Below are positions 2,313 through 29,739 of a stretch of DNA of 64,000 nucleotides, piece by piece. Both the position numbers and the translations under genes were made by a program. The DNA comes from Shinella daejeonensis (lineage in GTDB: Bacteria > Pseudomonadota > Alphaproteobacteria > Rhizobiales > Rhizobiaceae), in contig NZ_JAHWXY010000009.1 of the NCBI RefSeq assembly GCF_024281235.1, positions 62,001 to 126,000 of the forward strand, read 5' to 3'. Below the pieces are notes generated by a model. It did not search any database and was not told where the DNA came from. It worked only from the letters and a program-made list of their open reading frames with translations. Numbering within the stretch: the first letter of the stretch is position 1; each line of letters starts with the position of its first letter.

Positions 2313-2342
2313 CGGGGATAAGCCGTCAGCCTTGCGTGAGGC
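2313..2342 (-). promoter_or_regulatory. Candidate flagellar promoter motif upstream of motA
   Basis: Read leftward, the sequence is CTCACGCAAG, then 10 bases, then TATC, ending about 37 bases before the motA ATG. It is one of six sites in the window with the same CRCAAG-N10 arrangement, all upstream of flagellar units. The second half (TATC) is the poorest match to the TAGG seen elsewhere. The promoter or Rem-box role is inferred. Confidence 0.45.
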
Positions 2343-2382
2343 TGTAGGCTGCATCCCCGGGCAGCGGGTACGCGCCGATCAG

Positions 2383-2407
2383 CCTCGCACAAGCAAGCAC
2401 GCACAGG
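2383..2407 (+). promoter_or_regulatory. Candidate flagellar promoter motif upstream of the DUF1217-flgF unit
   Basis: The sequence is CCTCGCACAAG, 10 bases, then CAGG, 55 bases before the GTG start of the DUF1217 gene. It is divergent from, and about 40 bases away from, the matching element for motA. The first half is identical to that of the site before the motB unit. Function is inferred from recurrence. Confidence 0.45.
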
Positions 2408-2462
2408 ATTGGAGCTTGTGAGGGGCTTTGCGCCCTGCCCGTGATCTATCGGCGGAGCCATC

Positions 2463-3242
2463 GTGACGACCACCTATACGAGCTATAAGCTGATCTCTTC
2501 CGACCTTCAGGCCTCGCTGAAGCGCGTGGCCGAGCAGCCGGACGTCAAGCGCGAGACGGAATATTACCTTGCCCATATCGGCGACGTGAAGTCGATCGAT
2601 GACTTCTTCGCCGACAGCCGTCTCTACAACTATGCGATGAAGGCGCATGGCCTCGAGGATATGGCCTACGCCAAGGCCTTCATGCGCAAGGTGCTGACCG
2701 AGGGCGCGGACGACGAGGCCGCCTTCGCCAACAAGCTGAGCGACAGCCGCTACAAGGAACTGGCCGAAGCGCTCAATTTCGCCCGCCACGGCGAACTGGC
2801 CACGACCTTCGAGCGTGCCCGCAAGGGGGTGGCGGACAAGTATCTCCGCGAGACGCTGGAAGTCAGTGCCGGCGAGGACAATACCGGCGTGCGGCTGGCG
2901 CTGTATTTCGAACGCATGGCCTCGTCGATCACCTCCGGCTATTCGATCATCGCCGATGATGCGCTGGCCCAGGTCGTCCGCACCGCCCTTCAACTCCCCG
3001 CCGAATTCGCCGCGACCGACGTCGACAGGCAGGCGGCCTATTACGAGAAGGCGCTGAACCTCGAGGATTTCCAGGACGGCGCCGCGCTCGGCCGGTTCCT
3101 GGAGCGGTTCACCAGCCTGTGGGAGCTGGACAATCCGGCGGGCAGTTACGATCCGCTCACCGCCTTCCGCTCATCGAGCCTCACGGGCATTTCGACGGAC
3201 CTTCTCCTTTCGATCAACAATCTGAAACTTGGAGGCCGCTGA
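2463..3242 (+). CDS. DUF1217-family flagellar-cluster protein
   Basis: The 259-residue, mostly helical soluble protein has no signal peptide or membrane segment. The opening (YKLISSDLQASLKRVAEQPDVKRETEYYLAHIGDVKSIDDFF) matches the DUF1217 family as I know it, which in rhizobia sits next to flgF. It starts at a GTG preceded by GGCGGAG with suitable spacing. It ends one base before the flgF start codon, so it is the head gene of the flgF-fliI operon. Its biochemical role is unknown to me. The invariable flagellar context suggests an export or assembly accessory, but that is inference. Confidence 0.75.
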   Translation: MTTTYTSYKLISSDLQASLKRVAEQPDVKRETEYYLAHIGDVKSIDDFFADSRLYNYAMKAHGLEDMAYAKAFMRKVLTEGADDEAAFANKLSDSRYKELAEALNFARHGELATTFERARKGVADKYLRETLEVSAGEDNTGVRLALYFERMASSITSGYSIIADDALAQVVRTALQLPAEFAATDVDRQAAYYEKALNLEDFQDGAALGRFLERFTSLWELDNPAGSYDPLTAFRSSSLTGISTDLLLSINNLKLGGR

Positions 3243-3243
3243 C

Positions 3244-3969
3244 ATGCAGACCGGGCTTTACGTATCGCTTTCCTCCCAGCTCGCTCTCGACCGCCGCATG
3301 ACGACGCTGGCCGATAATGTCGCCAATGCGACGACGGTCGGTTTCCGCGCCACCGAGATCAAGTTCAACAAGGTCATCAGCGACCAGAAGATCGCCGATG
3401 TCGCCTTCGTCTCGCAAGGGCAGGAGTTTATGAACACCCGCAGCGGCGGCCTGACCGAAACCGGCGGCCCGCTCGACTTCGCCATCAAGGGCGACGCCTG
3501 GTTCCAGGTGGAGACCCCCGCCGGGCCGACGCTCACCCGCGATGGCCGCTTCGCGCTGACGGAGGCCGGCGAACTGGTCACTCTCAACGGCTATATGGTG
3601 CTCGACGCCGGCGGCGGGCCGATCCAGCTCGATCCCGAAAACGGATCGATCTCGTTGAGCGCCGACGGTCAGCTGAACCAGAACGGGCGGCCCGTCGCCG
3701 CCCTCGGGCTGTTTTCGGCCGACCTTTCCGGCGGCTTCATGCGCGCGGGCAACAGCGGCCTCATCACCACGCTTGCGCCGGAGCCGGTCATCGACCGTCT
3801 CGATGCCGGTGTCGTGCAGGGCTATATCGAGGAATCGAATGTCAATGCGATGAGCGAGATGACGCAGCTCATCCAGATCACTCGGGCCTTCGAGAGCACG
3901 GCCGCCCTGCTGCGCGACAGCGAGAGTTCGCTGAGCGAGGCGGTGCGGGTGCTCGGCGGCAGCAAGTAA
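3244..3969 (+). CDS. flgF: Flagellar basal-body rod protein FlgF
   Basis: The 241-residue proximal rod protein belongs to the FlgF/FlgG family. The N-terminal helix (SSQLALDRRMTTLADNVANATTVGFRA) carries the rod/hook signature ANNxAN-type motif. The C-terminus (VNAMSEMTQLIQITRAFESTAALL) is the matching heptad helix. The ATG at 3244 is preceded by a strong GGAGG eight bases upstream, inside the end of the preceding gene. In-frame codons upstream lack a ribosome site. It is exported by the flagellar type III apparatus, so no Sec signal is expected and none is present. It lies between the DUF1217 gene and fliI. Confidence 0.93.
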   Translation: MQTGLYVSLSSQLALDRRMTTLADNVANATTVGFRATEIKFNKVISDQKIADVAFVSQGQEFMNTRSGGLTETGGPLDFAIKGDAWFQVETPAGPTLTRDGRFALTEAGELVTLNGYMVLDAGGGPIQLDPENGSISLSADGQLNQNGRPVAALGLFSADLSGGFMRAGNSGLITTLAPEPVIDRLDAGVVQGYIEESNVNAMSEMTQLIQITRAFESTAALLRDSESSLSEAVRVLGGSK

Positions 3970-3975
3970 ACGGCC

Positions 3976-28177: not shown

Positions 28178-28214
28178 TGACCGGAGGATACGGACACACA
28201 TGAAGGATGTCTGA

Positions 28215-28568
28215 ATGTACCAGTTTTCCTATGCCGAGATCATGGAGGAGGGCTCCGTCGTCTCCAGGGACCGGGAGCGGCAGGTTCTCGAACGGTCGAT
28301 CGCTCTCCTGAAGGTGGCGGCGGAAACGTCGGACGGGCGGTTGGGCAAGGACGCCATCGAGGCGATCTATTTCACGCGTCGGGTCTGGATCCGCTTCATC
28401 GAGGATCTCGGATCTTCCGAAAACCAGCTCGACGAGGAACTTCGGGCCAACCTGATTTCCATCGCCATCTGGATCCTCAAGGAAATCGAAAAGATCCGCA
28501 GGCGCGAATCCGACAATTTCCAGGGCATTATCGATATCACCACCATCATCAAGGATGGCATCAAATGA
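28215..28568 (+). CDS. flaF: Flagellin synthesis regulator FlaF
   Basis: The 117-residue cytoplasmic helical protein matches FlaF in [13 protein letters not shown]...[16 protein letters not shown]...[14 protein letters not shown] order (here [44 protein letters not shown]). In alphaproteobacteria, FlaF is needed for flagellin synthesis and acts opposite to FlbT. The stop overlaps the flbT ATG (ATGA), a conserved pairing. Confidence 0.93.
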
Positions 28569-29011
28569 AAAGCACGCTGCGTATATCGCTGAAATCCGGT
28601 GAGCGCATCTTCATCAACGGCGCGGTTCTGAGGGTCGATCGCAAGGTGGCGATCGAGTTCCTGAACGACGTGACCTTCCTTCTGGAAAATCACGTTCTCC
28701 AGCCGGAGCAGGCCACGACCCCGCTGCGCCAGCTCTATTTCATCGCGCAGATGTCGCTGATCAATCCGGAAGGCGCCGAACAGTCGACCGCGCTGTTCCG
28801 CAAGTCCGTGCTGATGCTGCTGTCCTGCTTCCGCAACGAGGAAGTGCTGGCCGAACTGAAGCGCGTCGACGGACTGGTCGCGCAGGGGCGCGCCTTCGAA
28901 GCGCTGAAGGCCATCCGCGCGCTCTATCCGATCGAGGAGCGCGTCCTCAGCAATCAGGAACTGCCGCCGGCGACGATCGAGCAGATCCGCAAGGAGATCG
29001 CACCATGGTAA
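28565..29011 (+). CDS. flbT: Flagellin mRNA regulator FlbT
   Basis: The 148-residue protein has the FlbT signature [61 protein letters not shown]. FlbT is a post-transcriptional regulator that in Caulobacter binds the 5' leader of flagellin mRNA. It overlaps flaF at its start and flgD at its end. Confidence 0.94.
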
Positions 29012-29415
29012 CGCCCGTTTCCGGTTCGGATGCCTATTCCCCGACGGTCTCCGCCACGCAATCGTCCGGCGACGCCAGCGCGGCGGCGCTCAACTATGAA
29101 AGCTTCCTGAAGCTTCTCGTCGCGCAGATGAAGAATCAGGATCCGACCGAGCCGATGGACGCGGCCCAGCAGATGGCGCAGCTCGCCACCTTCTCGCAGG
29201 TCGAACAGACCATCAAGACGAACAAGAACCTCGAAAGCCTGCTCCAGCGCACGTCGTTGCAGGAGGCAAATTCGGTTATCGGTCGCACCGTCACCAGCCA
29301 GGACGACAAGATTTCTGGCGTCGTGACCTCGGTCACGCTATACACGGACGGTATTGTGGCGACGCTTGAGTCGGGTGAAAAGCTTGTCATCGGACCGGGC
29401 GTGAAGGTGAGCTAG
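29005..29415 (+). CDS. flgD: Hook-capping scaffold FlgD (short form)
   Basis: The 136-residue protein contains the conserved FlgD N-terminal region ([52 protein letters not shown]) and a short C-terminal beta segment ([42 protein letters not shown]). It lacks most of the Ig/FnIII-like domains present in the roughly 230-residue enteric FlgD. The ATG at 29005 has AAGGAG upstream and overlaps flbT by 7 bases. This short form is usual in rhizobia as far as I know. Confidence 0.9.
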
Positions 29416-29421
29416 ACAACC

Positions 29422-29688
29422 GTGAATGAGGCCGACGCCCTCGACATCGCGCAGGCCGCCATCTGGACGGTGATCGTCTCCGCCGGACCGGCGGTGCTGG
29501 TCGCCATGATCGTCGGCGTCGCCATCGCCCTGGTCCAGGCATTGACGCAGGTGCAGGAAATGACCCTGACCTTCGTTCCGAAGATCCTGGCGATCATGGT
29601 GACGATCGCCATTTCCGCGCCCTTCATAGGCGCGCAGATTTCCATCTTTACGAATCTCGTCTTCTCGCGCATCGAAAGCGGTTTCTGA
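29422..29688 (+). CDS. fliQ: Flagellar export gate protein FliQ
   Basis: The 88-residue protein has two membrane helices (about 12-40 and 50-78), including ALDIAQAAIWTVIVSAGPAVLVAMIVGVAIALVQALTQVQEMTLTFVPKI, diagnostic for FliQ. It starts at a GTG 6 bases after flgD. It forms the export channel with FliP and FliR. A shared promoter motif follows before flhA. Confidence 0.93.
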   Translation: MNEADALDIAQAAIWTVIVSAGPAVLVAMIVGVAIALVQALTQVQEMTLTFVPKILAIMVTIAISAPFIGAQISIFTNLVFSRIESGF

Positions 29689-29712
29689 CCCTCCCGGTCC
29701 GGCTGCTGCCAC

Positions 29713-29739
29713 CCTCGCGCAAGTTTCACCCTGTAGGTC
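29713..29739 (+). promoter_or_regulatory. Candidate flagellar promoter motif upstream of flhA
   Basis: CCCTCGCGCAAG, 10 bases, then TAGG, ending 67 bases before the chosen flhA ATG. It is one of the best copies of the recurrent motif. Its presence suggests that flhA-fliR is also transcribed independently of the upstream flgE operon. Confidence 0.55.

Follow-up and report, generated by a model that had tools for sequence, protein, structure and literature searches.

The 30-bp element that stands before the flagellar transcription units of Shinella daejeonensis is very probably a class II flagellar promoter that combines an activator operator with a -10 box, and on which a head-to-tail dimer of the OmpR/PhoB-type regulator Rem would most likely take the place of a -35 hexamer. 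We found it in a 64,000-nucleotide stretch of contig NZ_JAHWXY010000009.1 (C37:62001-126000, handle G000, of a 4.66 Mb genome), called the window here. The first 34 kb of the window are filled by a rhizobial flagellar cluster that includes rem; cluster genes without a Pfam check carry names that we assumed from their position. An initial annotation of the window had described six CRCAAG-N10-TAGG sites and proposed Rem as their regulator. Rem-dependent class II flagellar promoters are known from Sinorhizobium, Rhizobium and Agrobacterium (Rotter 2006 and Tambalo 2010, as cited in the available excerpts of PMC8429497 and PMC4018554), and the promoters described here are like them in the regulator gene and in the class II set of flagellar assembly and motor genes. 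The excerpts of these two papers give no box; the present analysis derives an explicit operator from the sequence, together with its spacing and the list of genes that it precedes. More tentatively, and with somewhat less than even confidence, we propose that the 22-bp repeat with its fixed -10 is the Rem operator across the family, that TGTGGGCA, the motif of Brucella FtcR, is not the flagellar operator, and that one uncharacterized gene outside the cluster (the orphan gene) is under joint Rem and CtrA control, which would link flagellation with the cell cycle and possibly also with cell separation.

Architecture of the promoter element

The operator consists of two 11-bp direct repeats, 22 bp in total, with a unit of approximately [AC]AGCYTCRCGC and a second copy more degenerate than the first. 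All six sequences of the initial annotation were present, and their halves CRCAAG and TAGG were separated by a fixed gap of 10 bases, but the halves themselves turned out to be parts of larger units. CRCAAG is the joint between two head-to-tail 11-bp units. T25 and A26 are universal at flgE, flhA and motB and T30 is mostly kept at flgE and motB, so TAGG forms the first four bases of a sigma-70-type -10 hexamer, TANNNT, which begins two bases 3' of the operator and would serve as the working -10. The repeat is clearest in the copies that precede the orphan gene, such as AAGCTTCGCGC AAGCTTCGGGG CG TAGGCC.

The repeat was evident from self-comparison. At a lag of 11 bases, the nine sites of the own genome matched themselves at 45 of 99 positions (0.45), compared with 0.18-0.31 at the remaining lags from 6 to 14. 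Shuffling of the second half gave 25.2 expected matches (standard deviation 4.2), and 0 of 5000 shuffles reached 45. Outside the constant core (columns 4-9 against columns 15-20), the repeat persisted with 22 of 54 matches, where 14.0 were expected (p 0.004). The period thus fell in the 10-11 bp range of two direct repeats. Among the named loci, a set formed by the best 80 of 569 Rhizobiaceae Rem loci, the lag-11 match was 0.54 for flhA and 0.43 for flgE sites.

To count the -10 columns at the named loci, the box was located by matrix columns 1-14 alone. T25 and A26 then stood at the fixed spacing in every distinct site (62/62 for flgE, 74/74 for flhA and 68/68 for motB), while T30 was present in 61/62 flgE and 62/68 motB sites and in only 10/74 flhA sites. 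The 44 distinct sites of relatives were collected with a pattern that fixed only bases within the first 14; in the columns left free, they showed T25 in 37, A26 in all 44, and T or C at position 30 in 42.

No recognizable -35 was found in the element; with the -10 taken to start at -12, the operator occupies the stretch concerned, roughly -36 to -15. A sigma-70 promoter with a normal -35 was rejected, as that position is filled, by eye, with AGCYTC, a conserved part of the first repeat. A sigma-28 (FliA) promoter was also rejected: TIGR02479 gave 0 matches over the cut-off in the genome, and the three weaker matches, in frames of 683, 346 and 336 residues, are probably other sigma factors. The short gap had been considered unfit for both sigma-70 and sigma-28; a sigma-70-type -10 does fit, with the activator box predicted to replace the -35. 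We consider it very unlikely that an alternative sigma factor reads the two parts directly with CRCAAG as its -35. The fixed spacing of the halves at the flgE, flhA and motB sites would suit such a factor, but the gap from CRCAAG to the -10 is only 10 bases, the conserved part takes in 8 more bases on the upstream side and has an 11-bp repeat, TANNNT is the common -10 form, and the FliA search result also stands against it.

Table 1. Promoter sites and related features (window positions unless a contig is named; bits from the relatives-only matrix)
Feature	Position	Strand	Description
motA promoter	2315..2344	-	box CAGCCTCACGC AAGGCTGACGG, then CT and -10 TATCCC; 26.2 bits; genome-wide E 0.02
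DUF1217-flgF promoter, divergent from motA	2380..2409	+	weak -10 CAGGAT; 20.1 bits
flgB promoter	6069..6098	+	-10 TAGTTT; 18.3 bits, weakest box of the six
fliH-like/motB operon promoter	18055..18084	+	-10 TAGGTT; 31.2 bits
flgE promoter	24299..24328	+	-10 TAGGGT; 32.2 bits
flhA promoter	29710..29739	+	-10 TAGGTC; 33.9 bits
flgJ-like promoter	33070..33099	+	divergent box CAGCCTCCGGTAAG; -10 GATAGT; same 10-base spacing
fliF promoter	C37:55000, about 7 kb before the window		22.0 bits, fifth-best on the contig
CtrA-type TTAA-N7-TTAA before rem	23478..23492	+	
rem, OmpR/PhoB-type regulator	23584..24258	+	Pfam Trans_reg_C, E 1.1e-15
Tenth own-genome match	C11:688419		E 5.3

Specificity and conservation among relatives

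The exact pattern CRCAAG-N10-TAGG occurred three times in the window (before fliH-like/motB, flgE and flhA), against 0.11 expected, and 0 of 100 shuffles reached three. Read loosely, with up to two mismatches, it was not enriched in the window (74 found, 66 expected). Genome-wide, five of the eight exact matches lay outside the cluster and the backward control gave 27, so the short pattern is not specific. Chance similarity would account for the loose counts; nevertheless, chance and shared ancestry of duplicated DNA are both exceedingly improbable as explanations of the full element. The relatives-only matrix already refutes both, the genome scan, the named loci and the listing from 61 genomes described below also contradict them, and the sequences flanking the 30-bp element differ, by eye, between promoters.

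The 30-column relatives-only matrix was applied to 161.6 kb of the own contig. Its top seven matches were the six sites and the fliF site, with scores of 18.3-33.9 bits, where a Markov null predicted 0.07 matches above 16 bits; fliH-like, flgB and fliF were absent from the training genes of the matrix. No further window position scored above 10.9 bits, in agreement with the statement of the initial annotation that no such element precedes the metabolic operons. In all, the element was located before fliF, motA, flgF, flgB, motB, flgE, flhA and flgJ, as the class II reading implies. The open reading frame behind the C37:55000 site, beginning MNLSEQLTNIYNN, is presumably FliF; the frames behind the sites at G031:C155 and G022:C26 resembled it and showed a 53% match to each other. 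The flgJ copy at 33073, once described as looser, was confirmed, but its gap is the same 10 bases once the -10 is read as GATAGT. A pattern for this divergent form, drawn from the listed upstream blocks of the clusters, matched 25 of the 37 clusters and 58 of the 80 named loci, some of which may not reach flgJ.

For whole-genome scans, model R1 was built from 37 of the 41 distinct sites of relatives; the other four, which lacked a good TA at columns 25-26, were left out, and the E-values of R1 are therefore biased in favour of sites that have a -10. When 150 of 3470 first-look candidates of the own genome were scored (113-150 per genome overall), six matches showed E < 0.1, namely flhA, flgE, the orphan gene, fliH-like, motA and fliF. 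Five of these belong to flagellar genes and the remaining one to the conserved orphan gene, which is not the scatter over non-motility genes that would speak against the element. DUF1217 and flgB were missing from the list of ten, and the matches at C11:48907, C2:43135 and C11:562311 (E 0.6-1.6) had no flagellar gene downstream and were taken as chance.

Across 61 genomes, 110 matches were listed at E <= 0.0106, of which 85 lay no more than 60 kb from rem, 19 stood at the orphan gene and 6 were in other places. Many of the 85 rem-near matches were training sites, and the independent support therefore comes from the fliF, motB, orphan and G022 sites. The six matches elsewhere were motA and fliF of G022, one site 6-7 kb from visN of G004, and three sites (G034:C12, G053:C3 and G029:C5) that are unexplained or due to chance.

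Upon comparison of the Rem-bearing flagellar clusters of 36 relatives, two of them represented by one of two stretches, the same block was found to recur before flgE, flhA, motA and DUF1217. The strict 14-bp box pattern was present before 32 of 35 flgE, 17 of 33 flhA, 6 of 10 motA and 7 of 10 DUF1217 genes. Scores at the named loci were obtained with a matrix from all 41 distinct sites of relatives, -10 columns included. A box of at least 18 bits preceded flgE in 79 of 79 scorable loci and motB, within 1.5 kb, in another 79 of 79; before flhA, 72 of 79 reached 18 bits and 76 of 79 reached 14 bits. At flgK, a box of at least 18 bits was found in 1 of 80 loci. The flgJ boxes escaped this standard matrix (0/77 at 18 bits or above, 7/77 at 14 or above), and random 300-nt pieces reached at least 14 bits in 112 of 4800 cases, true sites included.

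The element tracked Rem, with G058 as an exception. Boxes were present in the distant Rem genomes G024, G027, G028, G030 and G036 and weak in G021 and G037; in G053, the single strong box had none of the query genes nearby. Flagellated order-level relatives without Rem showed a maximum of 2.8 bits before flhA (11 stretches, from 13 genomes with a long flhA match) and before flgE-like genes (29 rows, some of them repeat rows from the same genome). In the family members G025, G026 and G035, which have no Rem orthologue, neither an flhA nor an flgE gene was matched.

Rem and competing regulators

Rem is the best candidate for binding the box. It carries the winged-helix Trans_reg_C domain looked for in the putative cognate regulator (Table 1), with Response_reg below the cut-off, and its DNA-binding half was strongly conserved in 17 aligned sequences. 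A Rem-dependent class II promoter, as first proposed, is the reading best matched by the gene set, the family-wide co-occurrence with Rem and the 11-bp repeat form expected of an OmpR/PhoB-type activator. Rem is described as presumably activating the flagellar genes of rhizobia directly (excerpts of PMC4018554), and its effect at the promoters described here would be activation.

PhoB binds 22 bp consisting of two 11-bp direct repeats (excerpts of PMC2648988), the same length and arrangement as in the Rem-type box. The two repeats are unrelated in sequence, that of the pho box being CTGTCAT, and Rem, unlike PhoB, has by eye no acidic residue at the expected position of the phospho-acceptor aspartate. 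The pho box overlaps the -35 position. On the model of PhoB at pho boxes, a Rem dimer would sit head-to-tail on the two 11-bp repeats, contact RNA polymerase and substitute for the -35. The fliH-like/motB unit continues in the direction of rem, with no change of strand, through frames that we take, from their position, to be motC-, motD- and transglycosylase-like. Because this unit could read through into rem, which has no box of its own, positive feedback by Rem is possible.

A different conserved regulator, such as VisNR or an unrecognized OmpR-family paralogue, is unlikely to be what binds the box, with Rem present just as a fellow member of the flagellar package. Genes resembling visN and visR are located in this cluster just before the window, VisN accompanies Rem and the box in the genus and in several other genera, and further OmpR-type regulators exist (10 own-genome matches to Rem, Rem included). 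However, G024 and G027 keep the box with only C-terminal VisN matches and G036 keeps it with a weak one (best E 1e-8; VisR was not searched), which disfavours VisNR as the binder. In addition, VisN and VisR end, by eye, in LuxR-type sequence, and regulators of this type are expected to target short inverted repeats and not 11-bp direct repeats. CtrA was also tried as the class II factor and was rejected, since no TTAA was seen by eye in the six 150-nt promoter stretches.

We take FtcR, the flagellar regulator of Brucella, to be the orthologue of Rem. Its motif TGTGGGCA comes from ChIP-seq and has gel-shift support at ftcR and betI, and FtcR binds before fliF (excerpts of PMC9456535). As an operator for the cluster, this motif was rejected, as it occurred in the window only at positions 33931 and 63538, at none of the flagellar promoters. 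The three de novo motifs given for S. meliloti in the available part of PMC3616915 do not include the Rem-type box, which is likewise undescribed in the available parts of PMC9456535, PMC10469942, PMC8429497, PMC4433202, PMC4018554, PMC7769827 and PMC2648988. A Rem operator was not found in the literature searched; full texts, figures, supplements and the likeliest source (Rotter 2006) were outside its scope.

Several points weigh against a Rem-activated class II promoter. The motif of FtcR differs from the Rem-type box. Within the element, the second 11-bp repeat is degenerate, and in the motB sites the match at lag 10 (0.43) equalled or exceeded that at lag 11 (0.38). No box of at least 14 bits was found before rem itself in any of the 80 named loci. 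Among the distant genomes, scores in the 38-kb cluster of G058, whose Rem is 56% identical, did not exceed 4.6 bits, and G037 (Rem 41% identical) reached only 15-16 bits. Since all flagellated Rem-negative controls lie outside the family, distance and absence of Rem are confounded. Rem-negative genomes gave weak model matches too (best E from 0.018 to 0.96), and E-values alone separate poorly at the weak end. Furthermore, weaker members may be missed, because the whole-genome scans scored only the limited number of first-look candidates given above.

The promoter switch is real and widely conserved, and genes under flagellar control should be readable from it. An operator defined at this level would allow the Rem regulon to be listed for any Rhizobiaceae genome, and it offers a direct test of the differing FtcR motif.

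The orphan gene, CtrA-type sites and isolated boxes

The orphan gene (G000:C31:55322-55966; L116:7323-7967), which lies outside the window, was the sole strong genome-wide match outside the flagellar cluster. It adjoins pcm on one side and, on the other, a LytM-type gene that we take to be NlpD-like. The encoded protein has approximately 180-220 residues, with no Pfam match for the own-genome copy. The gene was present in 24 of the 61 genomes, namely all 21 examined members of the genus and three further genomes; in one relative it is apparently split into two frames (L155 and L160, G003:C1:1226348-1226850).

The own-genome promoter of the orphan gene combined a near-perfect tandem 11-bp box with a CtrA-type site. 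We scored 24 of 25 loci, omitting one of the two pieces of the split copy. The box reached at least 14 bits in 23 of the 24, and TTAA-N7-TTAA was present in 22, each time with its start 22 bp upstream of the box. Two loci departed from this arrangement: L149 had neither element, and L159 had a box of 14.1 bits and no CtrA-type site. This arrangement predicts joint control of the gene by CtrA and Rem, and the operator singles it out as a likely flagellar or cell-cycle-linked member.

A CtrA-type site was also found before rem, where TTAA-N7-TTAA occurred in 60 of 70 scorable named loci, compared with 131 of 4000 random pieces. The site stood at a constant 106 nt in 21 of 21 same-genus genomes. 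The TTAA-N7-TTAA before S. meliloti rem has been published, and ChIP-seq and expression data oppose control of rem by CtrA in that species (excerpts of PMC4433202).

Two frames of the flagellar cluster, 12298-13791 (497 residues) and 18115-18897 (260 residues), had no Pfam match; the latter is the FliH-like gene behind a box, and among relatives it had either no match or a poorly conserved one. Outside the window, on the minus strand at C37:59508, a copy of the box that scored 15.7 bits and is followed by ATAGTGT lies inside coding sequence, close to the 3' end of a flhB-like frame; it is possibly an internal promoter or due to chance. Finally, a good box, CAGCTTCGCACAAGCTTCGCTGCCTATTC, was present at G034:C12:31522 (L126:2023-2051) with only an 83-residue frame downstream, and it may precede an unannotated small RNA or small protein.

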